From: Arenibacter sp. 6A1 | GTDB lineage: Bacteria > Bacteroidota > Bacteroidia > Flavobacteriales > Flavobacteriaceae | DNA: 64,000 nucleotides | Direction: 5' to 3' | Assembly (NCBI RefSeq): GCF_012272855.1 | Contig: NZ_JAAXCQ010000009.1 | Location: 1 to 64,000 of the forward strand | In this document: positions 1 through 16,862 of the stretch, piece after piece | Layout of the letters: each line of letters begins with the position of its first letter | Position numbering within the stretch: the stretch's first letter is position 1 | Program-made: the position numbers and the translations under genes | The notes under the pieces: model-generated | What the model saw: only the letters and a program-made list of their open reading frames with translations | Told to the model about the DNA's origin: nothing | The model's database searches: none

Positions 1-106
1 ACTACAAACGTTAAGTTTCATTATCGAACCGCCGTATACGAGACCCGTACGTACGGTGGTGTGAGGGGTGCACTCCGTCATTAGATGGCGGAGCCACCCA
101 CTCGAT
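1..106 (+). mobile_element. 3' end of a group II intron (domains V and VI); the rest lies left of the window
   Basis: Two RNA folds seen in the sequence identify this as the tail of a group II intron. Domain V: bases 28-36 pair with 52-60 (one G-U pair), bases 50-51 form the two-base bulge, and 37-40 pair with 46-49 below a short loop. The lower stem carries a CGC triad. Domain VI: 63-65 pair with 101-103 and 66-70 with 95-99, leaving A100 as a single bulged adenosine, with an upper stem of 73-80 with 86-93. A bulged A six or seven bases before the 3' end is the expected branch point, and the intron should end in AT at 105-106. The reverse transcriptase/maturase that normally sits in domain IV is not in the window. 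The class of intron cannot be decided from this tail. Confidence 0.82.
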
Positions 107-117
107 TGTACTACGTT

Positions 118-960
118 TTATTGCCTTTTAATTTCATCTAAAGTCCGACCATTTTTATCTTTCCATTTATTCCAGCCATTAGTCGATCTTCCTAATATAA
201 CTCCACCTGCTGTACTTGGCGAACCAAAAACATAATCCTGAACAAATTGATAGTTTCCATTATGTTCAATGATTATCTCGTTTTTAAACAATTTTTGACG
301 GAGGTTAATAAGATATTCATGACAGGAAGGAGTTGTTTCTTTCTTAGCTTGAGAACCTTTAAACACGACGAATCCATCATCTATTAAATCTCCCTCCGCA
401 GTAATTCCTCGTCCATTTAAAAACAAAAGCTCTTTGGAATCAATCTGTTCTTTACCAATCTTCTCATAAATCGGAAATCCTAAAGTGGATAGTAATATTT
501 TTATGGTATCAAAGCTATCAAGTAGATCCGCTTCCATTGATTCAGTTACGAAAGGTTTACTTGGTGAAGTAAGATTTTCAGTAAGATATGTACTAGATTC
601 CTTTGCTTCTTCAACTGCAATATGTTCTAGATATTTTGCATGTGATTTAGTGAATGCATTTATTTTTGAAACCATTACTACCGCATAGTTCCAAAACTCT
701 TTTGTTCTGTTATGTTGTTTTAATCTTTCTAAACAATCTTCTGCTTCTCCGATATATGCAATTGGTTTTGCTTTTTCAGCTAATTCTCCGAATAAGAAAT
801 ATATGCCTACATTCTTTAACTCATTTCTTGATGCGATATATTCCAACTTATTCCTAGGAACTAATATGGCTTTAACAACTCTATTGGTAATCTCCGCAAT
901 TTTCACGCTTCTTGGAGAGCCATCAGGTAAGAAAATCTGAATAGTTTGTGGTCGATTCAT
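118..960 (-). CDS. GIY-YIG nuclease family protein with C-terminal DUF4357
   Basis: The 280-residue product has the GIY-YIG nuclease signature: GIY at residues 52-54, YIG at 69-71, an acidic residue at E112 in the position of the metal-binding glutamate, and a short GIY-YIG core of about 75 residues. The C-terminal 65 residues (GNYQFVQDY, then GGVILGRSTNGWNKWKD) match the DUF4357 module that often follows GIY-YIG domains in bacterial accessory genes. No signal peptide or membrane helix is seen. The gene ends 11 bases from the 3' end of the group II intron and faces it. It is probably cargo of the mobile region. GIY-YIG proteins cut DNA, but whether this one is a restriction, repair or homing-type enzyme cannot be told. 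Confidence 0.8.
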   Translation of the reverse strand: MNRPQTIQIFLPDGSPRSVKIAEITNRVVKAILVPRNKLEYIASRNELKNVGIYFLFGELAEKAKPIAYIGEAEDCLERLKQHNRTKEFWNYAVVMVSKINAFTKSHAKYLEHIAVEEAKESSTYLTENLTSPSKPFVTESMEADLLDSFDTIKILLSTLGFPIYEKIGKEQIDSKELLFLNGRGITAEGDLIDDGFVVFKGSQAKKETTPSCHEYLINLRQKLFKNEIIIEHNGNYQFVQDYVFGSPSTAGGVILGRSTNGWNKWKDKNGRTLDEIKRQ

Positions 961-1357
961 TTTTATGTTTAAAATTCTGACTAACGCTTAAATTTAATAT
1001 AAATTTCTTACATAGAAATTAACTCGTTAGTTTAATAAATTAATAGAGTTTTTCTTTATGTGAAGAATGTAGTACAACTCGTTATATCAGTTTAATATAT
1101 ACTGTTTATCGGCTAATTACTTTGGATAACAGCAATAATACGGTACTGTTATCTATTTATAAATAGCTGTATCAATATTATAATATTGGTAGGTGAATAA
1201 CAAATTAAATAGAAAGAAAATACAACAATTTGATGCTGCTTGAGGGGAGGTATGGAGAATATGCTCTTGTATGTTTTTAGAAACCCTGTTTCTGGCACAA
1301 AACGAACCGATATTTTTCTTTTCTCCTAAAATCAACTTTTTAGTTTTTTGACCTTTT
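961..1357. other. AT-rich stretch without a supported gene
   Basis: No convincing coding frame. The only structure seen is a short direct repeat: AACTCGTTA followed shortly by AGTTTAATA occurs near 1020 and again near 1077. A 60-codon open frame on the minus strand (1153-1335) has no recognisable features and is not called. Confidence 0.5.
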
Positions 1358-1573
1358 TCAAGAGGGCTTAGGGACTAGTTTAGACTTTGAGACCGGCAAG
1401 GAATTAGCCTTCAGTAATGCAAGATTGTAAATGTTAAAATATTGAAGGAAATCTTTAAGTATTTCTGAGTTTTCCTTTAAACAATGACAAAATATCTCAG
1501 TAATATAATCTTCTGTAGGATCTTTATCAGTATTTAGTTATAGCTTGAAAACCTTTCTGAATATTCCTGCCAT
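1358..1573 (-). pseudogene. Broken 5' remnant of a PD-(D/E)XK nuclease-like gene
   Basis: Reading the minus strand from the ATG at 1573 gives a 71-residue frame interrupted by a TAA at codon 12 (1538-1540) and ending at a TGA at 1358-1360. After the nonsense codon the frame runs on as PTEDYITEIFCHCLKEN and then EILKDFLQYFNI. The P-x-E-D-(F/Y)-x-T-E-I-F start is, to my knowledge, typical of the N-terminus of PD-(D/E)XK nuclease family proteins found in defence and accessory islands. The catalytic core is absent, so this is a truncated and mutated relic. The family assignment rests on this short motif and is tentative; the fact that the frame is broken is seen directly. Confidence 0.42.
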
Positions 1574-1891
1574 AATTATAATTAAGCCCTACGAACGTGA
1601 ATAGAACCTAGTGATTATATCTCTATTGTACAATCCACCAATATAAGGTTTTATCTACTATTTCGGAAGTTGTTCAAAAGAGCAGTAGTCAACTTGTGCT
1701 GAATATGCGATGAAGAAATAGGATTAAACGTTATGCTATGGAAAAATGTAACTATGTTTATGGAAAAAGAGGAGAGTTTACAACAAAAGCTCTCATCGTT
1801 GTAGGTGTAGCAGGATAAAGGTAGGGGAGAAGGGCTCTCCCCTTTTAAATATTGTTGTCCAATGAAGTGACCGTAGGTTGGAGGATACTGT
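1574..1891. other. Stretch without a supported gene
   Basis: A 90-codon open frame exists on the minus strand (1651-1923), but its composition is poor and it overlaps the 3' end of the regulator gene. I see no RNA gene, repeat or clear promoter here. Confidence 0.4.
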
Positions 1892-2290
1892 TTAAATCTT
1901 CTTCTTAAACTCGGTAAGGGCATTTACAATGGCGGCTTCCATTTCCTTATATTCCTCTTGTACATCGGCTTGGTAGACCACGTTTTCACCAATATTGGTT
2001 TTTGGGATAAACTCGTTGTTTTCAGTAAGGATCCATGCTGGATTATATCCCAGGGAATAGTAGTATAATATCAATTTGATAGTAGTTAAGGAGATAGCCC
2101 CACGTTCTACGTTAACCAATGTATTGTAGTCCATTTCAAAACGCTCGGTAATGGCCTTTATGGAAAATGCGCTCGTGCGCCTGTTACCGGTATCTTTCGT
2201 AATCAGTTCTTCACGTATCAATTTTAACCGTTCACTGATGTATGCAAAATCCTCAGTAGGGGCTTTCATCAGCTCGTATATGTCTTTCAT
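1892..2290 (-). CDS. XRE-like helix-turn-helix regulator of the mobile element
   Basis: The 132-residue protein has a central XRE-like helix-turn-helix: SIKAITERFEMDYNTLVNVE followed by GAISLTTIKLILYYYSLGYNPAWIL, which ends in the 'P-x-W-(I/L)-L' pattern common after XRE helices in Bacteroidota regulators. The C-terminal 35 residues are acidic and probably helical. The gene lies 11 bases downstream of the coupling-protein gene on the same strand, so it is the last gene of the mobilisation operon. By position it may control the operon or excision; no operator was identified. The domain is clear, the role is inferred from context. Confidence 0.65.
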   Translation of the reverse strand: MKDIYELMKAPTEDFAYISERLKLIREELITKDTGNRRTSAFSIKAITERFEMDYNTLVNVERGAISLTTIKLILYYYSLGYNPAWILTENNEFIPKTNIGENVVYQADVQEEYKEMEAAIVNALTEFKKKI

Positions 2291-2301
2291 GTTTCGAATA
2301 A

Positions 2302-4830
2302 TTAATTTTCCAAATCCATTATTATAGGAAAGCTGGAGAATAAGCTTTCCAATTCTTTCTCTGCACCATTTCCAATCTCAAATTGATTGGCTTCGGTAAA
2401 CTTTCCAAAGTTAGGTAATTCATGCTGCTTACGGAATGAATCTGCCAATGCCTTTTTGGCTCTGGTATGAAAATCAGTAATAAAACCCCTGGCGATAAGA
2501 TCGTTTTTTTTCAAAGACGTACCTATTTCACCACCTATCTTAGTTTTATCAAATATCGGTAACTTGGGTTTTTTTCCTGTGCATCGAGAATACTCCCGTT
2601 CCACCAGGATATTGATATCCTGAATCACTTTCATAAAATTTTCCTCCAATACCCTGTTTTTCTCTTGCTCTTTGAACATTCGGTCCACCAGAGCGGTAAT
2701 ATACTCTTTTATAGAATTTATTGTATCGGTATCCTCTATTGTAAGGCTCTTTAATTTATGCAGGTGGTCAAATAGTTTTATTTCACGGGCTATTGGGATA
2801 AACTGCATCTGTTTTATAGGGTTATTGTACCGTTCCTTGGTAAATTTATTGAGGTACTTGCCATAGAACTCCCTGTGATCCCTCTGACCAAAGTCCAGAT
2901 GTTTCACTACCTCAAAAAAATTAAGATTTTGTAGAACGGTCATTTTGGAGGCTACCAACTCCTGATGGAGTTTATTTCTAAATTGGAAGGGTGAAGGTAG
3001 TTCGTATTTGCCCTGAATTTTCTTAGCTTCCATATTGGGCATTAACAGTCCACAACATAGCTTTTGCGCTATCGGCTGCTCAAAGGTATCGGCGACAATA
3101 CCTGCAAAATGACCAGTAGACATACTGCTTATCTTGCTCTTTGGAAGCAATGACGAAAGGATGGTACTAAAATTAAGCGTGGTATCCTGGCTGGAAACCG
3201 CTTTGCTTCTTTTTTCCTGATGGATACGTCCAAAAATTTCGCTGATTCGACGGGCTGTTTCTCCTTTTGCAGCGCCAGTAAAGACATTGGAGCAGTTGTC
3301 AAAAATGACCTCTGCCAGTTCCCGGCCGTAATCGGCTATAAGCTGTGTAATACTTTGTACTCCTAGTATCGTGGCTACGTAATGAGACCTGCCAGTATCA
3401 ATAATCTTTCGAAGTCCCATAATGAAAACGGTCGGGAGTTCATCCAAGATCAGACCCATTGGCCTACACCCTGGTTTGTTCACCACCTGTAGCACCTTGT
3501 TAATGAACAGACCAATGGGAGCAGCGTATATTTCTGAACGATCGGGATTGTTTTGAATGCAGACTATTTTTGGACTTTGTGGGTTGTTGATGTCCAACTG
3601 AAAATCGTTTCCAGTCATAATATAATAGATTTCCTTACTGGCCAGCATCGAGAGGGAGATTTGAGCACTAGCGGTCTGACCTGCCAATTGCTGACCTGCT
3701 TTTCGATCCATGGCGTCTTTGAAAGGAATCATTAGACTACGAACTTCTACTTCCTGCATCATAATTTCCAATAAGTATTCTATGTTAATGGTAGATAAGG
3801 TGATCACATGGGGCAGCGTACAGATATATTCACCTGTTTCCTCGGATTTCTTTTTTAGGTACCATATCAGCCCAGCAACAAAACTAATGGCGCTTCTGGA
3901 GAAGAAATCACCGCGTTTGATCCACTCCTTGTTTAGGTTCTTCATTATAATGGTAGCTGCATCCGAAGCGTCCGTCTGGTTTTGCATTAAGTAGGGATCA
4001 ATAGGATTGCAACGGTGCGATTTCTCTATGTTATCAAAGCTCAAGGTATAAAATTCAGGTATTTTGAAAGGTTGGTCCGTTTCGTTGGTAAGTTCCTTTT
4101 TTTGACGCCAATAGTTGTAGGCGATTTTACTAAGGGTATCCAACTTAAAATCGTAAATCAGCAACGTAAAGTTTTTTGCTATCATCTGTTCTATGATCTC
4201 TTCGATCAAAGCAAAGGATTTTCCACTACCTGGGGTGCCTATGACCAACAAACCCCGAAACAGGTTTACGAAATTCACCCACCCTTTGCGGAGTATCCCG
4301 CGATAACGGTATTCATAGGGGATGTTTACGGAATATTTGGTATCAATCTTTTCTTCCATTTGCCGGAAGGATTCGTTCTGTTCGTTAAATGGATCTTCCT
4401 CGGCCTCGTTGGCAAAGTCCATAACTTGGAATAAGTGAACGACCCCTGTAACCGATAATAAAAACCCAATGCAGTACAAGAAAAGGGAGTAGCCTAGTGA
4501 AGGAATTTGGAAAGCTTTAAAATAAGCCGTAATAAACAGTAGTAGGGCGCCGAATGAAAAATATACAAATCCGGTGACAAGAGAGCTTCCTTCTTTTTTT
4601 CTGGGGTTATAGAGCATAACGCTCCCCAAAATAATCAGTAGCAATAAAGACCTGCTGAGAAAAGGCTTTTGTAAAGTCTTGAACCGTCCTAAAAATTCAT
4701 GAACCATTCCGAAAAGGGCCGAATCCAGTTCTAGGTATTGCAGCAGTGGGTAATATGGGATAAACCCCAATATTACAAAGAAACTTACCGAAAGTAGCAT
4801 GGCCGAAAAGGCCAAGTTCTGGTTGTTCAT
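2302..4830 (-). CDS. VirD4/TraG-type conjugative coupling ATPase (MobC-like)
   Basis: The 842-residue protein begins with about four hydrophobic helices (residues 8-30, 60-75, 83-103, 110-133). A cytoplasmic ATPase follows, with Walker A GTPGSGKS at 198-205 and a Walker B-like LILDELP further on. Length and order fit type IV coupling proteins of the TraG/TraD/VirD4 family, especially the MobC/TraG proteins of Bacteroidota conjugative and mobilisable elements. Such proteins bring relaxase-bound DNA to the transfer channel at the inner membrane. The downstream XRE gene is 11 bases away and the Toprim gene lies 106 bases upstream. No relaxase or mating-pore gene is in the window, so mobilisation depends on genes further left or supplied by another element. 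Confidence 0.88.
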   Translation of the reverse strand: MNNQNLAFSAMLLSVSFFVILGFIPYYPLLQYLELDSALFGMVHEFLGRFKTLQKPFLSRSLLLLIILGSVMLYNPRKKEGSSLVTGFVYFSFGALLLFITAYFKAFQIPSLGYSLFLYCIGFLLSVTGVVHLFQVMDFANEAEEDPFNEQNESFRQMEEKIDTKYSVNIPYEYRYRGILRKGWVNFVNLFRGLLVIGTPGSGKSFALIEEIIEQMIAKNFTLLIYDFKLDTLSKIAYNYWRQKKELTNETDQPFKIPEFYTLSFDNIEKSHRCNPIDPYLMQNQTDASDAATIIMKNLNKEWIKRGDFFSRSAISFVAGLIWYLKKKSEETGEYICTLPHVITLSTINIEYLLEIMMQEVEVRSLMIPFKDAMDRKAGQQLAGQTASAQISLSMLASKEIYYIMTGNDFQLDINNPQSPKIVCIQNNPDRSEIYAAPIGLFINKVLQVVNKPGCRPMGLILDELPTVFIMGLRKIIDTGRSHYVATILGVQSITQLIADYGRELAEVIFDNCSNVFTGAAKGETARRISEIFGRIHQEKRSKAVSSQDTTLNFSTILSSLLPKSKISSMSTGHFAGIVADTFEQPIAQKLCCGLLMPNMEAKKIQGKYELPSPFQFRNKLHQELVASKMTVLQNLNFFEVVKHLDFGQRDHREFYGKYLNKFTKERYNNPIKQMQFIPIAREIKLFDHLHKLKSLTIEDTDTINSIKEYITALVDRMFKEQEKNRVLEENFMKVIQDINILVEREYSRCTGKKPKLPIFDKTKIGGEIGTSLKKNDLIARGFITDFHTRAKKALADSFRKQHELPNFGKFTEANQFEIGNGAEKELESLFSSFPIIMDLEN

Positions 4831-4936
4831 AATAGTATCGTTTTGTTAAATATGCCTTCCTTTAAAGGTTCTATAAGCGGAATATCAAGCTGGTAAAAAG
4901 AAGCATTACATCATTCGATGTAATTCAATGAGCGTC

Positions 4937-6484
4937 CTAGGGGCCCATTTTAAGGTATGGCGCCTGATGGTCCTTTATTGAGTCCTTAATCCAAGTGATC
5001 GGGACAAGGGATGTTCGTTTAGTAAAATGCGTCTTGATGTGATTAAAGGGAACCGTTTCGCTATCCCCTGGGCCAAATTCGCATCTAACACAGTCATCGG
5101 AAAGGGCTTTTATAATTCCTATACTGCCAGGGCGATGGTTTCCTAACCAGAATTTTATAGTTACCTTATCTCCAATGGCCATGATATTGGGGGCAACGGT
5201 TTCCAACTTATGAAAAATTTCCCTTTTGGAATCCATGAGGTCTTCGTTCCAGTCTTTTCCAATCGATTTATGGACGGTGATGTGAAAGGGTAAATAAACA
5301 GTGCTAATGGTTTCTATAAGTGCCTTGAAAGGATGTTTTTTCTCCTCCTTTTTGGGGATGTCCATCATCTCCTTTAAGGAGAATTGCAATGCTATTTTGT
5401 CATGGGATTTTATCCATTGGACCAAACTCCTTTGTACCATGGAAGTTATTGTTTTCGCTAAAACCTGTGCATGAATTCTTAATTTACTTCTGCTATCTTT
5501 AGGGTAATTTATGCAAAAACTAACGCTTTCTCGACGGAACAATGCTTCTACTCCAAGATCCTGATTATAAAAATTTAGGAGGCTTGCCAACAACTTTAGA
5601 TCGAACTCGAATCCTTTACTATCGTTGTCCATGATGGATTTAATGATCGTCTTGTTGGTGTCGAGGTACGCTGCGGTGAGAAGATTAAAAAAAGTGAGTT
5701 TTTTTGAGTAGACGTTTCCGCTGAAAGAGACATAAAAATATTGAGGGCTACCATGGAGTTGGTGGTAGGAGAGGAGGTCTACGGCGCTTTCCCCTACAAC
5801 AATCGCAGAGGGAGCTTTTATAGGAGTGGAATAAAACAGGAAGTGGTCTTTGCGGTTGAGCACAAGACGAAACTTTTTTATTTTATCCTCCTTTTTGCTT
5901 CTATAGGACTTGTTGAACAATATGTAATTTTGTGGGCTGCCCGCCAAATCGTATTTGGGAAAGGCGATGTTAGCGATTTTACGACCATTTTTATTGTTTG
6001 GGTAGGCATTATAGATACGACCGCAAAAGTTTACGCTCTTTAGGGTAGCCATAGAAATACCTCTTTGATTCAGTAGGTAACCGGGATTTTCCAAGGGGGC
6101 AATAGTAAAACTTAGCTCCAAGGGTTTGTTTTTGGAAGTAGCCTGTCTTTTCTTTAAAGGGATACAGACCGATTGCTCGCTGATATTCGCAATTTTTAGT
6201 CCTTCCCGAACGGCCACGTAAAAGTTGTCGCTCCGCTTTAAAAGGAATTTGAAAAAAAGCCCCTTATCCTGGGAATCATTGCGGTTGAAAAAGGTTACTG
6301 GATCTCGGCCGATATTCAGTACAATGCGATCCCTAGAATTTTTAAACTCCATGGAGCTCGCACTTTTCTTTATTAAACTATAGTCATTTCGATGGAGGAA
6401 CAAAGGAAAGTTAACCTCAGAGTTGATTTTTGAGATTAATCTTTTATAGTGTTGCGGATCATCTATGTAATTGGGCCCATTCAT
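4937..6484 (-). CDS. Toprim domain protein of the mobile element (DUF3991/Toprim-like primase or nickase)
   Basis: The 515-residue protein has a region resembling the DUF3991 lead-in (GYLLNQRGISMATLKSVNF at 135-153, then a GRIYNAY and an IAFPKYDLAG segment). A Toprim fold follows, with the catalytic glutamate in VVGESAVDLL (E232) and the paired aspartates in IMDNDSKG (D286, D288). These are the metal-binding residues of Toprim primases and topoisomerases. The last 80 residues contain a small KOW/SH3-like stretch (IGDKVTIKFWLGNHRPGSIG). In Bacteroidota mobile elements such proteins sit beside mobilisation genes and are thought to act in replication or priming of transferred DNA. The Toprim residues are seen; the exact reaction is inferred. 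A degenerate relative lies at 7498-8721. Confidence 0.75.
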   Translation of the reverse strand: MNGPNYIDDPQHYKRLISKINSEVNFPLFLHRNDYSLIKKSASSMEFKNSRDRIVLNIGRDPVTFFNRNDSQDKGLFFKFLLKRSDNFYVAVREGLKIANISEQSVCIPLKKRQATSKNKPLELSFTIAPLENPGYLLNQRGISMATLKSVNFCGRIYNAYPNNKNGRKIANIAFPKYDLAGSPQNYILFNKSYRSKKEDKIKKFRLVLNRKDHFLFYSTPIKAPSAIVVGESAVDLLSYHQLHGSPQYFYVSFSGNVYSKKLTFFNLLTAAYLDTNKTIIKSIMDNDSKGFEFDLKLLASLLNFYNQDLGVEALFRRESVSFCINYPKDSRSKLRIHAQVLAKTITSMVQRSLVQWIKSHDKIALQFSLKEMMDIPKKEEKKHPFKALIETISTVYLPFHITVHKSIGKDWNEDLMDSKREIFHKLETVAPNIMAIGDKVTIKFWLGNHRPGSIGIIKALSDDCVRCEFGPGDSETVPFNHIKTHFTKRTSLVPITWIKDSIKDHQAPYLKMGP

Positions 6485-6544
6485 GGTGAAGAAATAAAAG
6501 CCGACCTAATCTGTAGACCGGCCATTGGTTATTTGCAAAAAAAA

Positions 6545-7375
6545 CTACCCGTTTAAGGTATTGTTAAGCTGATTCTTTTTTGTTTCAGCGGGTGTCGACA
6601 TATTTGTCCTTTGTTGTTCCATTGGTTCGCAATTTCTATAAAGAAAACGTTGGCTCTTTGCACTCCATCTTACCTTATAAGTCAATGGTCCTTTTTGCGT
6701 TTTTCGAATCGTAATTTTAACCTCTTCGCCTTGATTTAGTTTTTCCGCCTGGGATGCGGTTAGTATTTGGCCCAAAACATACATATTGGCCGAGACGGCA
6801 GATTTCGTACGAATGTCGTGTAGTTTAGGCTCATAATAGGCTATCTTTTTAAAGGTTTCACCATTCACAGACGATCCTGTAAACAGGATGGTTTTACCCT
6901 CTTGCACCATGGCATGGAATTCTTCCTTGGAAAACTGGTACCGATAGGCATTCGCTTCTTTCCATTTAACAGGCTCGGTACGTTTTATCTGCACGTCCAA
7001 TTTGGAACCATAGATAGGGTGGTAGAGCATTTGAACCATCTTTACGGTTTCTTTTAATGTTCCGTCTTTTATATAAGTGGTCGTTATTAACGCTTCCTTG
7101 CCCTCCAAGATATTCTCTTGAATATTGGGCTCTAACTTTTCAAAACTTATATAGGCCCCTTCCAAGCGTCTTTTGGCATCGGCCGTAGCAAATTGTTGAT
7201 CCTTGGTTTTTCGGACTTCTACATGAATGCTGTCCATTAGCATTTCAAATGGAGGATGGTTAATTGTCTTTATTTTAAAGATGGTATCATCTGTGGATAC
7301 GGCTTCGCCTTTGTGCCATACTTGGTTGACAAAGACGAATACTTTTTGAACTGTATTTTCTACTTGATTTTCCAT
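6545..7375 (-). CDS. Mobile-element protein with DUF3945/DUF4099-like segment
   Basis: The 276-residue protein lacks signal peptide and membrane segments. Near the C-terminus, LGQILTASQAEKLNQGEEVK resembles the repeated 'L-T-x-x-Q-x-x-x-L-x-x-G-x-x-V' unit of DUF3945/DUF4099 proteins carried by Bacteroidota conjugative elements. A second, weaker copy may be present near residue 165 (FSKEEFHAMVQEGKTILFTG), followed in both cases by a beta-rich stretch. It sits 60 bases upstream of the Toprim gene and is probably cotranscribed. The function is unknown; it travels with mobilisation and Toprim genes and may bind or protect DNA. The family assignment is tentative. Confidence 0.5.
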   Translation of the reverse strand: MENQVENTVQKVFVFVNQVWHKGEAVSTDDTIFKIKTINHPPFEMLMDSIHVEVRKTKDQQFATADAKRRLEGAYISFEKLEPNIQENILEGKEALITTTYIKDGTLKETVKMVQMLYHPIYGSKLDVQIKRTEPVKWKEANAYRYQFSKEEFHAMVQEGKTILFTGSSVNGETFKKIAYYEPKLHDIRTKSAVSANMYVLGQILTASQAEKLNQGEEVKITIRKTQKGPLTYKVRWSAKSQRFLYRNCEPMEQQRTNMSTPAETKKNQLNNTLNG

Positions 7376-7497
7376 TTTTGAGTGATTTAAATTGTTACGG
7401 AATTTGAAATTGTTACCTTTGAATAACTTTCAGATCAGGAGTGATTTGTGAGTTTCGGAATTTGAAGAAAAGAGGACGGGAGCGTCCTCTTTTCATT

Positions 7498-8721
7498 TTA
7501 CAGGGCTATCCTATATTCTTTCAATGGCACCTCCTTCCCTTCATTGATTTGATTTTGAGTGTTTACCCATTCAGTGTACCAATTGTCTGATTTTGGTTTT
7601 AGTATATCTATCGTTTTGTTCAGATAGTTTTTGTAATAAGACCAGACCAATAATTTGATGGCGTTGGATTCTATGGGCAACCGGACCTTAATGTCTTCAT
7701 TGTCTTTTGAAACCAGAATACTGTATTTGTTAAGTCTGTTTTGGTCGATGATTTTATTAAATTTTAAAAAACTTTTGGTCAACTCTTTATTATATCGTCT
7801 TGTATGGTCGTAAAAGCGGGAGAAAGATTTTTCATTTTCCATGGGGAAGCGTAACAACATATCCCTATCGGTCAAGATTAAATTGAAATCAGAATCGCTT
7901 GTGTACGATATAAAGTGGAGATCATGTAAATAGCCTTCTATTTTTTTATTTCCCGTAAAGCTTAAAAAGAGTTTGTCCACTTTTGTTAGCCTTTGGATCT
8001 GGAAAAGGATATCGGTGGTTTGGGAATTTATTGCTCCCAACGCCATATATACTACATTTTCTAATTGAAATTTTTTGTGAAAGGCCAATGCCTCCTTGGG
8101 ATTGTTGAAAAGAAAAAGGCCTTCTATTTTTTTGGGGATATTGGAATACCAAAGGGAGTGCCCTATTGCCGACTCCCTATAAGGGACTACCTCCTTGCTT
8201 ATATCTTGGAAATATCCGCAGATCTCGTTCTGCAAGTTGAATAAGGGAAATAGGGGGGCGCCTTCATCGCTTAAGAACACACGCCCCGAAAAGGGAATAT
8301 CGTTTTCCAAATCAAAATATAGATTTCCCGAAGTTTCTTCCAGGGGTGACTGGTAAGATAAAAAATGATTAAAATCTTTTTGAACTACTTTAAGGGTCTC
8401 TTCCGAGTAATTTGCTCTTAATAGAGATTTGGTTTCCAATACTTTATTGTAGTAGTTGTACACCTTATCCCATATAAAATCTTCTCCCGATCCTTCCATT
8501 TTTGAAACATGGACCGTTATTAGTTCTGATGCCGAAAATTTTTCCTGTGGACGTTGTACCGTATAATAGAAATATCCCTTTTCCGTTTTAATGACTATAT
8601 AATGCTCATCGTATTTTTTAAATAGAAGGTAAGTGTCCTCAGAACGTAGGAGTCCGAAACCCAAATATTCGAAAAGTTTGGGAAGGTGTATTAGGTGGTC
8701 TTTTGTAAGCCAGTTGTCCAT
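7498..8721 (-). CDS. Toprim-like protein with lost catalytic residues, paralogue of the neighbouring Toprim protein
   Basis: This 407-residue protein parallels the Toprim protein at 4937-6484 segment by segment. GRVFLSDEGAPLFPLFNLQN (residues 146-165) corresponds to the GRIY...FPKYDLAG region, LWYSNIPKKIEGLFLFNNPK (190-209) to LFYSTP...VVGES, and KVDKLFLSFTGNK (247-259) to IIKSIMDND. At the Toprim positions the glutamate is replaced by Asn/Pro (FNNPKEAL) and the DxD pair by FTGNK, so metal-dependent catalysis looks lost. It is the first gene of the minus-strand operon, starting 22 bases from the first base of a divergent open frame that contains the M23 gene. It may be a structural partner or regulator of the active Toprim protein. 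The homology is my own reading and needs a structure-based check. Confidence 0.55.
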   Translation of the reverse strand: MDNWLTKDHLIHLPKLFEYLGFGLLRSEDTYLLFKKYDEHYIVIKTEKGYFYYTVQRPQEKFSASELITVHVSKMEGSGEDFIWDKVYNYYNKVLETKSLLRANYSEETLKVVQKDFNHFLSYQSPLEETSGNLYFDLENDIPFSGRVFLSDEGAPLFPLFNLQNEICGYFQDISKEVVPYRESAIGHSLWYSNIPKKIEGLFLFNNPKEALAFHKKFQLENVVYMALGAINSQTTDILFQIQRLTKVDKLFLSFTGNKKIEGYLHDLHFISYTSDSDFNLILTDRDMLLRFPMENEKSFSRFYDHTRRYNKELTKSFLKFNKIIDQNRLNKYSILVSKDNEDIKVRLPIESNAIKLLVWSYYKNYLNKTIDILKPKSDNWYTEWVNTQNQINEGKEVPLKEYRIAL

Positions 8722-8848
8722 AGAATATTAACCTCTTATTAATATGTATATAATTATTAAATTTGTATATAAATACAAATATATGATTTTTTTTGTACTT
8801 TTTAGCCGTTGGAATAAAAAAGTAGATTGTAATAAGTTGAAAACCAGT

Positions 8849-9622
8849 ATGATTTTTGGAAGAAAGAAAGTGTGCTACTTTGTCGTATTAGTTACGATGG
8901 GTCTTTTCTATATTATTCAGAATAGTCCGGGTAAATCGGCTCAACGGCTGGAGGATGCCGTGAAAACTATGGATTTGTATGAGGAGCGATTAAACATGAA
9001 CTTGAATGATACTATGACTACAGGGCTGGAGGTAGCAAGGGAGCGGGAGCGATTGTTGATGGCCATCGAAGAGCGTATAATAGGTTTTCTATATCGAATA
9101 CCTGATTACTCATACATAGGTTCACTGGAGACCTACCTAAAGTACCGCCCAAATTTGTTAGCCCAATTTCCCGCTGCCGTTCCGTTGGGAAAAGGCGATT
9201 ATTCCATTTCAAGTAACTACGGAACACGTATTCACCCCATTTCAGAAAAAGAGAAAAAACATTATGGGATCGATTTGGCCGCCCCATCCGGGACAAAGGT
9301 ACATGCAACAGCATCCGGTACCATTAAGGAGCTGGGGTATTCGCCAAAGGGATATGGTATCTATATTGTCATGCGGCATCGCTTTGGTTTTGAAACCATA
9401 TATGGGCACTTGGAGAAGGTGCTGGTCCATAAAGGAGAGACGATAGCTCAGCACCAAATTATAGGCACATTGGGGAATACGGGAAATTCAACGGGATATC
9501 ATCTTCACTACGAAATACTGAAAAATAAGGAAAAAATTGACCCAAGACCTTCTTTCGATCTTAAAAAGAAGATATATGCTAGATTGTTCAAGGGTAACCC
9601 GGAAATGGAAGAAGAAAATTAG
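8849..9622 (+). CDS. M23 family metallopeptidase, membrane-anchored
   Basis: The catalytic domain carries the full M23 (LytM/lysostaphin) set: HYGIDLAAP supplies the HxxxD ligands, YGHL the middle motif, and GYHLHYEI the HxH pair. SSNYGTRIHPIS is the usual entry strand. I start the gene at the ATG at 8849 (MIFGRKKVCYFVVLVTMG), which puts a single N-terminal membrane helix right after a positive patch; the longer frame from 8744 adds a poor leader. A short helical linker separates the anchor from the peptidase. The enzyme would cut peptidoglycan cross-bridges in the periplasm. Divergent from the mobilisation operon, it probably opens the wall locally for DNA transfer, as similar peptidases do in other conjugative elements. 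Confidence 0.85.
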   Translation: MIFGRKKVCYFVVLVTMGLFYIIQNSPGKSAQRLEDAVKTMDLYEERLNMNLNDTMTTGLEVARERERLLMAIEERIIGFLYRIPDYSYIGSLETYLKYRPNLLAQFPAAVPLGKGDYSISSNYGTRIHPISEKEKKHYGIDLAAPSGTKVHATASGTIKELGYSPKGYGIYIVMRHRFGFETIYGHLEKVLVHKGETIAQHQIIGTLGNTGNSTGYHLHYEILKNKEKIDPRPSFDLKKKIYARLFKGNPEMEEEN

Positions 9623-10309
9623 GTGTTTTTTATTGATTCTTCCTGCTTTAACACTTCCTAGCCTTCAAAGGAATCAATCTAACCTTCCAATCTACTGCTT
9701 TTTAGTTTCAAATATGGTCCGTTTGTTTAATGGGCTCAATTTTAAACTACCATTTCTTTTTGGTATACATACTTCCATCTTTTTTTATTGGTTCGATATC
9801 TAAATAGGACGAATGAATTGTTGAGACCTAATAAGTCAATTTTCATGAACATGCTGCAAGTTAATCAAGCCGCCTATGCCGGATCCATCTTGTTGTTGAA
9901 AAAATAGGCTATCCCTGCTGTCGGGGGAACCCACCGCAATTTTTTTAAATCTCCACATGGACTTACCCGCACCGCTGCGCTGCTGTTGATTGTTGGGGTT
10001 GCATAATATTAAAATAAAATATCATGGAAAATAATAAAAAGAGGATCCTTTTGTTGTTTAGAAAAGGGAAAATAGACGCGACGGGACAAAGTGAAATTAT
10101 TCAAATTATATAGAATTTTAAAAGAGGTGTTATTCTAAATGCGAATATTGAATTATAAAATCAGGGATCAATAGCCAATTGCAAAACCCTTAAAAGCACA
10201 AACGGAGACAGTTTAATGGCAAAATAAAAAGACGTTTAGGAAATGTATAAGTTGTTGGGTAATAGTTAATCATCCTAATAAAGGGACAAAATGTTGTACA
10301 TATGTTGTA
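9623..10309. other. Gene-free end of the mobile region
   Basis: No gene is supported between the peptidase and the tRNA terminator. A GC-richer patch (about 9880-10000) stands out from the AT-rich surroundings. On the minus strand there is a frame of roughly 58 codons open from about 10015 to a TGA at 9836-9838, containing AGKSMWRFKKIAVGS, but it has no start codon at its beginning and no family I recognise. A 29-codon frame at 10024-10113 is also too short to call. If the element integrated at the tRNA, its right attachment site should lie in or near this stretch. Confidence 0.5.
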
Positions 10310-10346
10310 CAGAAGAAAAAAACCCAGAAGAAAAATCTCCTGGGTT
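10310..10346 (-). terminator. Rho-independent terminator of tRNA-Met
   Basis: AACCCAG at 10321-10327 pairs with CTGGGTT at 10340-10346. On the minus strand the stem is followed directly by a run of T. It lies 14 bases past the tRNA 3' end. Confidence 0.75.
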
Positions 10347-10360
10347 CCTGTATTTACTAG

Positions 10361-10434
10361 TAGCGAGAACGAGAGTTGAACTCGTGACCTCCGGGTTATG
10401 AATCCGACGCTCTAACCAACTGAGCTACCTCGCC
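10361..10434 (-). tRNA. tRNA-Met (CAU), elongator type
   Basis: On the minus strand the cloverleaf is complete: acceptor GGCGAGG paired with TCTCGCT (G-U at both ends), D arm GCTC/GAGC, anticodon loop TTCATAA with anticodon CAT, T arm ACGAG-TTCAACT-CTCGT, discriminator A. The first pair is G-U, not the C-A mismatch of initiator tRNA, so this is the elongator tRNA; tRNA-Ile2 with lysidine is less likely. No CCA is encoded. The mobile region begins right past its 3' end. Confidence 0.95.
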
Positions 10435-10460
10435 GTGCTACTGCTATTGCTTAGCGGGTG

Positions 10461-10489
10461 CAAAGATAGTTCTATTTTTCAATTGTCAA
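10461..10489 (-). promoter_or_regulatory. Promoter of tRNA-Met
   Basis: On the minus strand TTG (10487-10489) is followed after 18 bases by TATCTTTG (10461-10468), matching the Bacteroidota -33/-7 consensus TTG...TAnnTTTG. The leader to the tRNA would be about 20 bases. Confidence 0.75.
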
Positions 10490-10576
10490 AATTTTTTTTA
10501 AAAAAAATATTCTACCCCCATAAATTTTTTAATCATGTAGAAATATATATATTGTCCGACGTAAATAAGATCAAGG

Positions 10577-10960
10577 ATGAACGATAAAATTAAATTTGAA
10601 GTTGAGTTTGTAATACACGCTTCTCCACAACTACTATATCAATATATTTCAACTCCATCGGGCTTGTCCGAGTGGTTTGCAGACAATGTAAATTCGAGAG
10701 GAGAAATGTTCAGTTTTATATGGGACGGTTCCGAAGAAGAAGCTAAGTTGTTAAAAAGAAAAAGTGACGAGTTTGTAAAATTCACATGGCTTGCCGAAGA
10801 AGATGATAGTTTTTTCGAAATGCGGATCATTGTCGATGAAATTACCAAGGATGTGTCTTTGTTTATCACCGATTTTGCCGAAGAAGGCGAGGAGGATGAA
10901 GCTAAGATGCTATGGCAGAACCAGGTATCGAGTTTAAAGCAGGTTTTAGGATCGGCCTAG
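10577..10960 (+). CDS. START-like (SRPBCC) domain protein
   Basis: The 127-residue protein is a single START-like/AHSA1 fold of the kind annotated 'START-like domain-containing protein' across Flavobacteriia. It has the opening beta strand FEVEFVIHASPQLLYQYIST, the helix containing PSGLSEWFADNV, and a C-terminal helix ending in WQNQVSSLKQVL. Its middle and C-terminal parts are strongly acidic (EEEA, EEGEEDEA). It is soluble, with no signal peptide. It starts 55 bases upstream of the aminotransferase class IV gene on the same strand, so the two may share a transcript. The fold binds hydrophobic ligands or partner proteins, but no function is known for this subgroup. Confidence 0.8.
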   Translation: MNDKIKFEVEFVIHASPQLLYQYISTPSGLSEWFADNVNSRGEMFSFIWDGSEEEAKLLKRKSDEFVKFTWLAEEDDSFFEMRIIVDEITKDVSLFITDFAEEGEEDEAKMLWQNQVSSLKQVLGSA

Positions 10961-11014
10961 TCTCTTTTATTGAATAAAATGTATCTTTGGCCTTGAAAAA
11001 TCAAGGCTTTTCTT

Positions 11015-11860
11015 ATGATTAATTTTAATGGCAACTTACATTCAAAAGACTCCTATTTTTTAAATCAAGAAAATAGGGGGCTTCGTTATGGAGACGCATT
11101 GTTCGAAGCGATTAGGGTAGTGAACAACAAGGTGTTCTTTTTGGAAGACCACTACCTAAGGCTAATGGCCTCTATGCGAATTCTTAGGATGGAGATTCCC
11201 ATGAGTTTTACCATGGAGTTTCTAGAAGAACAAATATTGGCTACCGTTAACGCTAATGACCTGCAGAGCAAACCGGCCAGAATCCGCTTTACCGTGTTTA
11301 GGAACAACGGGGGCTTATACCTTCCAGAAAGCAATGACATCTCTTATATCGTAGAGGCTAATGCCTTAAATACGCCGTTTTTTATATTAAATGAAGGTGC
11401 TTACGAGGTGGAATTGTTTAAAGATTTTTATGTCAATGCAGACATGCTGTCTACCCTAAAGACCAATAATAAGATCATAAATGTTGTTGGGAGTGTTTTT
11501 GCCAGCGAAAACGGATACCAGAACTGCTTATTGCTCAATCAGGAAAAAAGAGTGGTAGAGGCTCTTAATGGCAATGTGTTTTTGGTAAAGGGAAATCTAA
11601 TCAAAACCCCATCGGTAAAAGATGGCTGCCTAAATGGTATCATCAGGAAAAAATTGATAGGTATCCTTGGAGCTTTGGAAGGGTATGAATTTGAAGAATC
11701 GCCTATTTCCCCATTTGAGTTGCAAAAGGCCGATGAATTGTTTATTACCAATGCCATTGTAGGAATACAGCCGATAACAAAATATAGGAAAAAGAAATAC
11801 GGTAGTAGGGTGGCAGCAGATTTGTTAGGAAAGCTTAACGCTGCAGCTAGGTTGAATTAA
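11015..11860 (+). CDS. Aminotransferase class IV (aminodeoxychorismate lyase or branched-chain aminotransferase-like)
   Basis: The 281-residue PLP enzyme belongs to fold type IV. Seen landmarks are NRGLRYGDALFEAIRV near the N-terminus, ARIRFTVFRN, the lysine-bearing strand DMLSTLKTNNKIINVVGSVF (Schiff-base lysine), the EALNGNVFLVKG strand, and a C-terminal DELFITNAIVGIQPI. In Flavobacteriia this protein is usually annotated as aminotransferase IV; it could make p-aminobenzoate for folate (PabC) or act on branched-chain amino acids, and sequence alone does not decide. Its stop codon overlaps that of the convergent YqgE gene by four bases. Confidence 0.82.
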   Translation: MINFNGNLHSKDSYFLNQENRGLRYGDALFEAIRVVNNKVFFLEDHYLRLMASMRILRMEIPMSFTMEFLEEQILATVNANDLQSKPARIRFTVFRNNGGLYLPESNDISYIVEANALNTPFFILNEGAYEVELFKDFYVNADMLSTLKTNNKIINVVGSVFASENGYQNCLLLNQEKRVVEALNGNVFLVKGNLIKTPSVKDGCLNGIIRKKLIGILGALEGYEFEESPISPFELQKADELFITNAIVGIQPITKYRKKKYGSRVAADLLGKLNAAARLN

Positions 11861-12420
11861 TTTAAATTTGGATTTTCCGGGGCATTCGACCAGATAAGGT
11901 AATTGCCCCCAAGTTCTACCATTTTTTCTTTCCAAAAGGCATTGGGCGACTTTTGAATGATATTACTTTCATATACGTTCTCTACGACTATCCAAGATTT
12001 TGAGCTTAGTTCTTCATTCAGTTGAAGGGAAGACCAGCCAGAGTACCCTAAAAAGAAACGGATGTCATCTTCGCCAATAATATTTTGATTGATGAGGTCG
12101 ACTATGGACCCGAAATCTCCGCCCCAAAAAATACCGTCCGATATTTCGATGCTATTTTCAATTAGATGAGGGACCTTGTGTATGAAATACAGATTGTCTT
12201 GTTCTACAGGTCCACCGTTATAGACTTTAAACGGAATGTCAATTTCCTTTACTAGATCGTTGATGGTGTAATCTAAGGGTTTGTTAAGGATGAACCCGAT
12301 AGAGCCTTCTTCTCCGTGTTCTGCCAATAAAACAATAGACCTGTTAAAGGACACGTCTCCGTAAAGAGTCGGTTCAGCAATCAAAAGGGTTCCTTTTTTG
12401 GGCTTTACTTCAACCATCAT
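11857..12420 (-). CDS. YqgE/AlgH family protein (DUF179)
   Basis: The 187-residue product is a full-length YqgE/AlgH protein: GTLLIAEPTLYGDVSFNRSI at the start, the LLAEHGEEGSIGFILNKP core, VYNGGPVEQDNLYFIH, and FFLGYSGWSSLQLNEEL near the C-terminus. These are the conserved blocks of the family. The protein is cytoplasmic and its biochemical function is not settled. It is transcribed toward the aminotransferase gene, with the two stop codons overlapping, so antisense interference between the two transcripts is possible. Confidence 0.92.
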   Translation of the reverse strand: MMVEVKPKKGTLLIAEPTLYGDVSFNRSIVLLAEHGEEGSIGFILNKPLDYTINDLVKEIDIPFKVYNGGPVEQDNLYFIHKVPHLIENSIEISDGIFWGGDFGSIVDLINQNIIGEDDIRFFLGYSGWSSLQLNEELSSKSWIVVENVYESNIIQKSPNAFWKEKMVELGGNYLIWSNAPENPNLN

Positions 12421-12477
12421 TTAGTAGTTCTAGTCTCTAAAATAAAACATTTCTTTTTAAGTCTAAAGATTTTTTTC

Positions 12478-12511
12478 AAAAAAAAAGCACCTCTTGGAAG
12501 AAGTGCTTTTA
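12478..12511 (-). terminator. Terminator downstream of the HU gene
   Basis: AAAAGCAC at 12483-12490 pairs with GTGCTTTT at 12503-12510, with an additional TCTT/AAGA inner pairing. A-runs on the left give a T-run on the minus strand. Confidence 0.75.
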
Positions 12512-12530
12512 AATTATCGGGTAATTATGA

Positions 12531-12803
12531 CTAGTTTACAGCGTTGCTTAAATCAGCTCCTGCTTTAAACTTAACAACATTTTTAGCTTCAATTTGGATT
12601 GTCTTACCAGTAGATGGGTTTCTTCCTTCTCTAGCATTTCTTTGAGAAACTGACCAAGATCCGAATCCTACTAGAGAAACTCTATCGCCTTTTTTCAATG
12701 AACCTTCAACATTTCCTAAAAAAGATTCTAATGCTTTTTTTGCCGCAGCTTTTGTAATGCCAGCATCAGCTGCCATTGCATCGATTAATTCTGTTTTGTT
12801 CAT
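12531..12803 (-). CDS. HU family DNA-binding protein
   Basis: The 90-residue protein is a standard-length HU: N-terminal MNKTELIDAMAADAGITKAA helices, the GDRVSLVGFGSWSVSQRNAR beta strand, the arm GRNPSTGKTIQIEAKNVVKF with the conserved RNP at its tip, and a C-terminal KAGADLSNAVN. It is a dimeric nucleoid protein that bends DNA. It stands alone between its own consensus promoter and a strong terminator. Confidence 0.97.
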   Translation of the reverse strand: MNKTELIDAMAADAGITKAAAKKALESFLGNVEGSLKKGDRVSLVGFGSWSVSQRNAREGRNPSTGKTIQIEAKNVVKFKAGADLSNAVN

Positions 12804-12848
12804 AATTTTGTTAAATTAATTGTTATTGTTTAAACTTTAATACTTCAA

Positions 12849-12878
12849 CAAATTTATACGGATTTGTCAGTAACGCAA
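12849..12878 (-). promoter_or_regulatory. Promoter of the HU gene
   Basis: Minus strand: TTG (12876-12878), 19-base spacer, TAAATTTG (12849-12856). This is an exact match to the TTG...TAnnTTTG pattern of Bacteroidota. The leader would be about 40 bases. Confidence 0.78.
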
Positions 12879-12981
12879 GTAAAATAGGGGGAAATCCATT
12901 ATTTTGTTAATAACTTTGGCTGTTTGTTAATAACGTAAGAGGTTTTTTACTTTCTTCGCTACCCTCAGTGTACATGGGGGT

Positions 12982-13929
12982 TTAGGCTACATAGGCCTCA
13001 TTTTTTAGTTTTAAACCGTTTAAAACATCTTTAGTAGCCATTTTTCGTTTCCCTGGTAGTTGTATCTCCAATAGGGATATAAACCCGCCATTGACCGCTA
13101 CTTTTATCTGTGATTTGTCAAAAAATAGCGAACCTATTTTTAAATTATGCTCCGCTACTTCCATGGTAGCGGTGTAGATTTTTAAAAACAATTCGTCCTC
13201 TCCATTATATAAGGTAGTCCAAGAAGTGGGGTAGGGGCTTAGGCCTCTTATTTTATCGTAAATATTTTTTAAAGGTTGCGACCAATCAATTTCACAAGTG
13301 TCCTTATGTATTTTATAGGCTTCCTTTAAGGTGTTGTCGTCCTGTTGTTTGCTAGGGGCTATGTCTTTACTTTCTATTCGTTTTACGGTTTCAACAACTA
13401 AATCGGCGCCCAAATACATCAATTTATCATGGAGGACTCCTGCTGTATCGTCCTTATCTATAGTTGTTTTTTCCTGGAGTAGAATTTCTCCGGTATCAAT
13501 TTTATCATCTATAAAAAAGGTCGTCACCCCGGTTTCTGTCTCTCCATTGATAATGGCCCAGTTAATAGGGGCCGCACCCCGGTACTGCGGCAGTAAAGAC
13601 GCGTGTAGGTTAAAGGTGCCAAGGGCAGGCATTTGCCATACTTCCCGTGGCAACATTCTAAAAGCAACCACAATCTGAAGATCGGCCTTAAGAGCGCTGA
13701 GCTGGTTTAAAAACTCCTCTTGTTTTAAATTGGTGGGTTGCAAAAGAGTAAGTCCCTTTTTCTTGGCGTATACCTTTACAGCCGATTCGTGAAGCTTTCG
13801 GCCTCTTCCCGCTGGTTTGTCGGGCGCGGTTATGACTCCGACAACCTCATAATTGTTCGTAATAAGGGAATCTAAAATTGCTACGGCAAAATCGGGGGTA
13901 CCCATAAATACTATTCTTAGCTTGCTCAT
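12982..13929 (-). CDS. fmt: Methionyl-tRNA formyltransferase
   Basis: The 315-residue protein has the N-terminal Rossmann part (RIVFMGTPDFAVAILDSL, PDKPAGRGRKL), the formyltransferase active site with N107, H109 (FNLHASLLPQYRGAAPINWA) and D145 (DDKIDTGEIL), and the C-terminal tRNA-binding domain from about residue 205. It formylates the initiator methionyl-tRNA using 10-formyltetrahydrofolate. Its ATG overlaps the end of recQ by four bases, so the two are translationally coupled in an operon with the upstream ATPase gene. Confidence 0.96.
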   Translation of the reverse strand: MSKLRIVFMGTPDFAVAILDSLITNNYEVVGVITAPDKPAGRGRKLHESAVKVYAKKKGLTLLQPTNLKQEEFLNQLSALKADLQIVVAFRMLPREVWQMPALGTFNLHASLLPQYRGAAPINWAIINGETETGVTTFFIDDKIDTGEILLQEKTTIDKDDTAGVLHDKLMYLGADLVVETVKRIESKDIAPSKQQDDNTLKEAYKIHKDTCEIDWSQPLKNIYDKIRGLSPYPTSWTTLYNGEDELFLKIYTATMEVAEHNLKIGSLFFDKSQIKVAVNGGFISLLEIQLPGKRKMATKDVLNGLKLKNEAYVA

Positions 13930-15830: not shown

Positions 15831-16372
15831 TATGTGTTTTTTATATGGTTAAGGATAAAGTTAACCCTTTGGTCTACGGTATCCTTTGGCACCGTGATGA
15901 TGTTATAACCGTAATGCCTATAGGTTTTTTCTAAAAAGGTGTGTATGCGCAAGGCTTCTTCAAAATTTTCGTATCGTTCGTTGTCCGAAGCATGAATCTC
16001 TTGCCAAGGCGGTAATAAAAATACTTGATCATAGACAAAAGAGGTGGTAGCGGTAATAAACTTTTTTTCATAAGGTTGTCCAAAACAATCCATATAAGCC
16101 AAGACGTCGGGAATGCCACGGTCTAGGAAAACGAATGGTTGTGCTGTTTTCTCGGCCTCTTGGTATTGCTTTATCCTTCCCTCCATAATCCGTTCGCTAA
16201 ACAATAAGGGGTCTGAAACGAATAATTGGGGAATACCTTGTTTTCTCGCTTCCAAGGTGATTTCCCTAGATATTTCCTCGAAGCAAAAAAAACCCTTTTC
16301 AGCAATTGTATCTATAATAGATGTTTTCCCGGTACTGGGACCTCCTGTGATGACAATTTTTTTGGTCTTCAA
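15830..16372 (-). CDS. AAA_28-type P-loop ATPase
   Basis: The 180-residue protein starts with a P-loop (IVITGGPSTGKTSIIDTIAE), has ISREITLEARKQGIP, and a kinase-like QPFVFLDRGIPDVLAYMDCF Walker B region. This pattern fits the NadR/Ttd14-like AAA_28 family of small NTPases, some of which phosphorylate nucleosides or sense nucleotides; the substrate is unknown here. Its stop codon shares the A of the recQ start (one-base overlap), and it is the first gene of the ATPase-recQ-fmt operon. Confidence 0.75.
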   Translation of the reverse strand: MKTKKIVITGGPSTGKTSIIDTIAEKGFFCFEEISREITLEARKQGIPQLFVSDPLLFSERIMEGRIKQYQEAEKTAQPFVFLDRGIPDVLAYMDCFGQPYEKKFITATTSFVYDQVFLLPPWQEIHASDNERYENFEEALRIHTFLEKTYRHYGYNIITVPKDTVDQRVNFILNHIKNT

Positions 16373-16488
16373 TTGTTGTGAATTTGTATTTCCCTATTTT
16401 AGGGATAAAATGCTACTGCAAAGTAATGAAATACCCCTAAGACTAAAAAATTGCCAAGGATACTTTATATATTTGCAAAAACATTGCT

Positions 16489-16776
16489 ATGGATCAAGAT
16501 AAATCAGACGAGTTTTATATTAGGTTAAAAGAACAATTAGCCCAAGGAACAAAGTGGCCATCAGATTACCTATATAAATTTATAGTGCCCACCGATGCTG
16601 GAAAAATTAGCCAGATCGAAGAAATTTTTAATAATACAGGAGCTGTCATAGAAACAAAGCAATCTAAGAACGCCAAGTATACCAGTCTTTCGATTACTGT
16701 AAACCTTAAGAGTCCGGACGAAGTCATCAATAAATATAAAGAGGTAGGAGCTGTAAAAGGGGTAATCTCACTTTAA
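16489..16776 (+). CDS. DUF493 (YbeD-like) family protein
   Basis: The 95-residue protein has the alpha-beta DUF493 fold: WPSDYLYKFIVPTDAGKISQ, then SKNAKYTSLSITVNLKSPDE, then INKYKEVGAVKGVISL. Family members resemble ACT-like regulatory domains; E. coli YbeD is of unknown function. A TATATTTG box lies 18-11 bases upstream of the ATG (16471-16478), suggesting a short leader. It is the first of three plus-strand genes leading to murA. Confidence 0.88.
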   Translation: MDQDKSDEFYIRLKEQLAQGTKWPSDYLYKFIVPTDAGKISQIEEIFNNTGAVIETKQSKNAKYTSLSITVNLKSPDEVINKYKEVGAVKGVISL

Positions 16777-16862
16777 AATAGTTTTTGTGGCATATTTTTG
16801 TTATTTTGCATGCGTACAAGAATACTTCCTTGTCTTAAATTTTTAAGTAAAAATATTTCAAT

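Follow-up and report, generated by a model that had tools for sequence, protein, structure and literature searches.

A predicted catalytically dead Toprim paralogue is retained beside an active copy in a transfer-type gene module of Flavobacteriaceae

Two genes of a transfer operon in Arenibacter sp. 6A1 (contig NZ_JAAXCQ010000009.1, positions 1 to 64,000; this whole stretch of 64,000 nucleotides is called the window) encode Toprim paralogues, one with intact catalytic residues (C) and one that has lost them (A). An initial annotation of this DNA had proposed that the active and the inactive copy are kept together in one mobilisation operon, and had taken this as a hint of a heteromeric complex. 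The first of these proposals is borne out: the proteins are homologous, A has lost the residues on which Toprim catalysis depends, the two genes occur together in a constant order, and the ratios of nonsynonymous to synonymous substitution (dN/dS) indicate that the pair is held under purifying selection. In these marine flavobacterial modules the dead copy may therefore serve the movement of DNA from cell to cell in some non-enzymatic way.

Homology of A and C and loss of the catalytic residues

The open reading frames (ORFs) of A and C had been placed correctly by the initial annotation, both on the minus strand, and they are separate, with a third gene, B, between them. The two genes and the codons discussed below are:

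7498..8721, minus strand: gene A, predicted catalytically dead Toprim-primase paralogue (pseudo-primase) of 407 amino acids, assigned by hhalign to the C family
4937..6484, minus strand: gene C, predicted Toprim primase of 515 amino acids with catalytic residues intact, assigned by Toprim_2, Foldseek and VIA
8104..8106, minus strand: codon of N206 in A, at the catalytic Glu place (alignment of orthologues)
7948..7950, minus strand: N258 codon of A, aligned with the first Asp of DxD (alignment of orthologues)
7942..7944, minus strand: K260 codon of A, aligned with the second Asp of DxD (alignment of orthologues)
7582..7584, minus strand: N380 codon of A, aligned with the DaN- Asp (alignment of orthologues)
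5789..5791, minus strand: codon of the catalytic Glu, E232, of C
5621..5629, minus strand: DxD of C (D286-N-D288)
5252..5254, minus strand: codon of D411 of C, the Asp of the DaN- motif (D-W-N-E)

BLASTP detects no similarity between A and C (E value 0.26). When profiles are compared, the match has an E value of 1.1e-5 with nine sequences on each side and of 9.7e-7, as one co-linear match of 376 columns, with 23 orthologues of A and 24 of C; the co-linear alignment covers 365-376 columns, in keeping with the earlier observation that both proteins follow the same segment order. The hhalign score of 57.1 compares with 17.8 ± 2.7 (maximum 25.1) for 100 column-shuffled C alignments; reversal of C gave 22.5 and of A 19.0, and the neighbouring family B gave 15.5. 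These controls rule out a chance resemblance. Taken separately, the Toprim core scores 24.8 and the N domain 21.8 (shuffle maxima 17.0 and 17.5 in 60 shuffles each), while the DUF3991-like region, at 21.6, lies just below its maximum of 22.2 (60 shuffles).

The same relationship is recovered in wider searches. With the A profile, the Toprim protein is recognised in 4/4 distant genome loci (111 ORFs, E values 3e-7 to 5e-5), and in 11 of 16 plasmid loci the lone Toprim protein is matched at an E value of 0.01 or better (best 1.2e-12). Built from 13 dead proteins, a profile matches active C genes in two whole genomes (1.6e-9 and 5.1e-9); its counterpart from 13 active proteins matches, in the window's genome, the dead A gene (3.7e-4). 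The dead protein of plasmid pGSB-24 directly matches active Toprim proteins of Hymenobacter (tblastn, 7e-14). These sequence comparisons confirm that A and C are homologues along most of their length.

The losses described by the initial annotation were also found. FNNPKEAL of A aligns with VGESAVDLL of C, which puts N206 in place of the catalytic E232, and FTGNKK aligns with IMDNDS, which puts N258 and K260 in place of D286 and D288; a third motif, the DaN- motif described for Toprim primases (Iyer et al. 2017, PMC5512222), is altered as well, with N380 for D411. E232, D286, D288 and D411 are each kept in 32/32 distinct orthologues of C. Among the 32 distinct orthologues of A the Glu place is N, K or R in all, a count that is partly built in because the peptide pattern used to collect the 34 loci itself requires N, K or R there and the surrounding PxEA; the place is also non-acidic in 9/9 loci found by a whole-protein search without the motif pattern, and in four plasmid dead proteins found as neighbours of active genes. 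The counts for the other two places are independent of the pattern: the second Asp of DxD is Lys, and the DaN- Asp is Asn, in 32/32. The first Asp is variable, with D or E in 6/32.

An alignment of 51 proteins extends the contrast. The Glu, the first Asp and the DaN- Asp are present in 35/35 active or lone proteins and the second Asp in 32 (Asn in the other three), while the Glu and the second Asp are both missing in 16/16 dead proteins, of which three have D or E at the first Asp place and one, from pGSB-24, keeps the DaN- Asp. The motif surroundings are retained, the A consensus LVVLKNPKEALAFH aligning with a lone protein that reads LVLTENPIDALSYC, and the pseudo-active site is itself conserved among A orthologues (FTGxxKxxG and [ND]PxEA), with K260, T256, G257 and G263 each found in 32/32 distinct orthologues. 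With its metal-binding acids replaced by neutral or basic residues, A cannot be expected, from its sequence, to work by the Toprim metal mechanism.

Structure models point the same way for C. Its model (predicted local distance difference test, pLDDT, 76.5; 24 sequences) has DnaG and T7 primases as best matches, with a Foldseek E value of 2.7e-5 to DnaG 2au3 and VIA Z values of 13.2 to T7 primase 1nui_B (185 residues, root-mean-square deviation 4.5) and 11.2 to 2au3; in Pfam, C matches Toprim_2 (5.1e-6), and DUF3991 below its cut-off. On sequence and model together, C is predicted to be a DnaG/T7-type Toprim primase. No Pfam, NCBIfam or PHROGs family is matched by A, and a sequence search of solved structures returned none for A and one weak hit for C, in a ribosomal protein S1 domain. 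For the A model, DnaG-type primases are not among the 50 Foldseek or 50 VIA matches listed; there is a local match to the RecR Toprim domain (Foldseek probability 0.99, E value 0.17, 60 columns; VIA Z 5.5 over 70 residues), and the top VIA match is topoisomerase IV (Z 6.5) at residues 277-367, outside the Toprim core.

The models of A and C, which were built from separate alignments and compared by their secondary-structure strings, agree at 73% of 370 aligned residues (shifted controls: mean 34%, maximum 44%). The agreement is 85% in the N part and in the core (79 core residues, at an A pLDDT of 46-63) and 64% in residues 276-395 (shifted maximum there 58%). The initial annotation had allowed that A might lack a Toprim fold; the predicted models have the same order of elements in both proteins. 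The Toprim fold of A thus rests on homology, and its model is consistent with this fold and does not prove it.

Around and after the third Toprim strand, the DCoH entries 3hxa and 1ru0 are matched with Z values of 5.6-5.7 for A and 7.3 for C, and DCoH-like matches at A 251-370 and C 284-399 reach 6.2 and 7.7. Values of this size may reflect merely a shared arrangement; a DCoH-like insertion typical of the A/C family is possible from the models.

Selection, co-occurrence and descent of the pair

Across six Arenibacter genomes the median dN/dS is 0.14 for A (9/15 pairs, those with dS above 0.05) and 0.24 for C (15/15 pairs used), and dN between the window and Arenibacter is 0.11 for A and 0.35-0.39 for C. 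Conservation within the two proteins is crossed. Among the four domains of A, compared over 12 loci, conservation peaks in the Toprim core (0.635, with 0.400 for the N domain), a value exceeded in the last 12 residues of A alone (0.80). In C the order is reversed, with the N domain at 0.610 and the Toprim core at 0.461; this contrast was reached by 0 of 10000 column permutations. In the six Arenibacter loci the mean synonymous distance is 0.09 for A, 0.16 for B, 0.38 for C, 0.30 for D and 0.46 for E, D and E being the next genes of the module; the low values at the A side come perhaps from recombination at the A end.

The gene for an M23 peptidase, A, B, C and D stand in a single order in all 34 loci fetched by A, and E follows in 32 of them, the contigs of the other two ending inside D. 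These loci were found through A, and therefore the reverse direction is tested only by two genome surveys. In the first, of 299 family genomes, 9 carry A and exactly these 9 carry C; in the second, of 189 genomes and with wider profiles, the two genes again coincide, in 5 genomes that all belong to the nine. The initial annotation had called for such a survey, and had considered that A might usually be absent where C is present; A accompanies C in 9/9 and 5/5 of these genomes and on 4/4 Flavobacteriaceae plasmids. On each of the latter (Flavobacterium pGSB-24, two Tenacibaculum finnmarkense plasmids and Aquimarina TRL1) the dead protein lies beside the coupling-protein gene with an active Toprim gene close by, and the pairs are divergent in sequence.

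The plasmid sample comprises 20 records taken from the matches listed, one contributing search having listed 20 of 47 records. A tblastn search with A found no match in plasmids, a negative that means little because divergent dead partners do exist there; the Aquimarina dead protein has a BLAST match to itself only. The 23-row A profile finds only the window's own genome in the order sample (1/196) and in the class sample (1/247), and the C profile finds 5/247 in the class sample, namely the same genome and four with a distant lone Toprim protein. PF13154 was found in none of 149 class genomes, and the dead protein of locus L077 in none of 149 family genomes. No relative of A or C was confirmed in viral contigs, and a viral origin was set aside on that result.

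A tree of the 51 proteins, built without the motif columns, has a branch that separates the 16 dead proteins from all others (support 80/85; recovered in 82% of 200 bootstrap trees); no such branch sets apart their 16 active partners (2 changes). The branching orders of the dead and partner subtrees agree, apart from a few weak branches and from Aquimarina, where the active protein is unplaced. Given the long branches present, the sequences make a single origin of the dead proteins likely, not proven.

The module and its genomic setting

The other features of the module are:

8744..9622, plus strand: divergent M23 peptidase gene that accompanies the module (Peptidase_M23, 3.1e-30; 34/34 loci)
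6545..7375, minus strand: gene B, conserved 276-amino-acid protein between A and C (34/34 loci)
2302..4830, minus strand: gene D, type IV coupling protein (MobC/VirD4-like) of 842 amino acids (Pfam and NCBIfam matches)
1892..2290, minus strand: gene E, conserved 132-amino-acid protein, probably helix-turn-helix (from a relative's annotation)
residues about 434-488 of C: KOW/S1-like C-terminal domain (structure match)

The product of D matches T4SS-DNA_transf in Pfam (9.4e-22), as a VirD4/TraG-type coupling protein, and Bacteroid_MobC (1.2e-176, 589 bits, which does not reach the cut-off of 900 bits). Neither B nor E has a Pfam match, and B as a third Toprim copy was ruled out (hhalign probability 0.1%). 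Of 24 plasmid and genome loci searched with the E profile, 9 contain matching proteins, among them all four plasmids that carry the pair. The KOW/S1-like domain is absent from C proteins of about 430-440 amino acids.

By BLASTP, the genes for a relaxase, ParA, TraG, an SNF2-type protein and proteins of 420 and 121 amino acids are absent beside the module in the window and in 6/6 Arenibacter loci (loci of 13.5-17 kb; window positions 1-20000, cut at the left end); among the 28 other loci the SNF2-type gene is found in 28 and the 420-amino-acid gene in 24. The M23-A-B-C-D-E module (window 1892-10434) shares its tRNA-Met and chromosomal neighbours with four of the six Arenibacter loci (L030, L031, L032 and L038). 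The distance between the M23 gene and the tRNA-Met gene is 0.7 kb in the window and 0.6-5.5 kb in these four, and the chromosomal DNA by the tRNA matches at 74-76% between the window and the four loci. The module may be a stranded, vertically kept and perhaps domesticated remnant of a mobile element, with its genes intact. Elsewhere in the same genome there are four relaxase genes (on contigs C9, C23 at two places, and C58), 42-44% identical to the relaxase of a related element, so that mobilisation in trans is possible. Left of E, at window 118-960, lies a gene whose product matches DUF4357 and, below threshold, GIY-YIG; BLASTP found no homologue of it in loci L020-L061.

Function of the pair and comparison with known systems

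Taken as a whole, the best explanation, to which we give an even chance, is that A is a non-catalytic subunit of a DNA-processing complex at the coupling protein, in which C is the catalytic one. An ancient duplication of a mobile-element Toprim (DnaG-like) primase would have given rise to A and C. To judge from its family, C would make RNA primers on the single strand moved in conjugation or mobilisation, and A would be a structural subunit of the complex, binding nucleic acid or a partner, that keeps hold of D, the coupling protein, or of the transferred strand, and positions C. The job of one Toprim protein elsewhere would here be split between two. Priming by C, the inactivity of A and a physical association are what we infer from these results.

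The heteromer of A and C proposed by the initial annotation received no direct support. In 22 of the 40 loci with all five genes, partial correlations of the distance matrices, at equal column numbers, are 0.56 for A-D, 0.36 for C-D and 0.26 for A-C (5-95% range -0.08 to 0.56), that is, with no A-C excess; over full length, in 27 loci, they are 0.79, 0.55 and -0.12. The distance correlations do not favour A-C over D, and for this reason we place A around the coupling protein together with C, to which it may bind. A more specific form of this proposal, which we hold only tentatively, is a two-subunit conjugative primase with catalysis from one gene and binding of the strand or of a partner from an obligate dead paralogue; the conserved parts would be crossed, the N domain being that of C and the pseudo-active site and C-terminal half those of A. 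Should this doubtful step hold, it would be the first bacterial case of the DnaG type within the literature searched.

Several results weigh against the proposed subunit role. Co-variation of A and C is not above background, which leaves the heteromer step unsupported in its own right, and the A-D signal may reflect only that D is the best clock, or has the cleanest tree. The C-terminal parts of A and C, taken alone, are without significance (14.7 against a shuffle maximum of 19.2), the A model has a pLDDT of 59 overall and of 46-63 over residues 201-280 (9 sequences), and it has no Foldseek match below an E value of 0.001. Family-wide, A is hardly slower than C (mean distance 0.87 and 0.92). 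All 16 examined plasmids outside Flavobacteriaceae have a lone active Toprim protein and no dead partner, the dead profile finding in each a single place, the lone Toprim; the fetched stretches of four genome loci likewise hold an active Toprim gene without a dead partner. Relaxase and secretion genes were not found beside the module, so its transfer function is read from relatives. Finally, one copy of A is split by a frameshift or stop (L026:6417-7695, genome G227) while its C is intact; it is the only split copy of A seen.

The strongest rival, unlikely but to be taken seriously, is that A is a coupling-protein adaptor or strand-coating protein apart from C, with which it would share just ancestry and operon. 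Such a protein might bind the transferred strand or the ATPase of D, much as has been speculated for the R64 Sog proteins; SogL and SogS are both transferred, and a strand-coating role has been suggested for them in the pertinent part of PMC6112013. The higher partial correlation of A with D than with C agrees with this, as does the pseudo-Toprim half of A, which pairs best with D alignment columns about 180-420 (between-protein 0.34). Correlations of tree distances are, however, weak evidence, and A is present with the active Toprim gene in every family element sampled that has the latter.

We consider it improbable that A is instead a brake, that is, a dominant-negative partner holding C inactive until transfer. 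A dead paralogue that adjoins the active enzyme and is under selection would fit such a role, but direct evidence is lacking, and the co-variation with C that an inhibitor should show is not seen above background. Still harder to credit is a new catalytic activity at the old site involving the invariant Lys260. The pseudo-Toprim core is indeed the best conserved domain of A and holds four invariant residues, but at the K260 column the dead proteins from the four plasmids read S, S, N and N, which leaves no new catalytic set common to all. That A is a decaying pseudogene, or its likeness to C a chance one of Rossmann-like motifs, has next to nothing in its favour: the failure of BLASTP and the single split copy speak for it, but the dN/dS of 0.14 and the invariant residues rule out decay, and the shuffled, reversed and neighbour controls together with the cross matches in whole genomes answer the rest.

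We judge that, among the steps of conjugation, how transferred DNA is primed has been little studied, and least in Bacteroidota, where we saw many Toprim proteins annotated by domain alone or as hypothetical. The pair is present in every sampled flavobacterial element that has the active gene, and it opens the priming step to genetics, as the two genes can be removed singly. If A is indeed a non-catalytic subunit, it would parallel, in bacteria, the dead primase of TWINKLE, and an enzyme would have been split into catalytic and non-catalytic paralogues inside mobile DNA. Dead T7-type primase domains, as in TWINKLE, and conjugative primases are already known; we read the dead/active pair as a new form of the conjugative Toprim primase. 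The initial annotation knew of no such pair, and none was found in the open-access PubMed Central literature as searched by title, start of abstract and some passages.

Among known systems, C resembles the Toprim_2/DUF3991-type conjugative primases (PMC5512222; the name DUF3991 is taken from Pfam, and the word is absent from that paper), whose Glu, DxD and DaN- motifs it has and with which it shares a place in a transfer module. A is homologous to C yet has none of the three motifs intact, and a dead partner gene is not described in the relevant section of that work. The fold of C is shared with the T7 gp4 and DnaG primases, for which action in trans between subunits is reported in PMC9198812 and in the title of a work cited by PMC6163395; unlike these, the A and C proteins of the window have no helicase domain, and their N domains are without zinc-ribbon cysteines (of the 407 residues of A a single one is Cys, and of the 515 of C five are, one of them within the first 110).

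In the mitochondrial helicase TWINKLE a T7-type primase domain has lost priming and been kept, a loss ascribed mainly to missing zinc cysteines, with changes in other motifs; the dead domain is fused to the helicase, and an active copy beside it is not mentioned in the relevant parts of these sources (PMC7231222, PMC3610141). A, by contrast, is a separate protein near an active copy, it is the Toprim acids that are lost, and its 407 residues, which have no Pfam match, show no fusion to a RecA-type helicase. SogL and SogS of IncI1 plasmids resemble C and A as a conjugative primase with a shorter companion made together; as set out in part of PMC6112013, SogS is a reinitiation product within one reading frame, whereas A is a separate, ancient paralogue.

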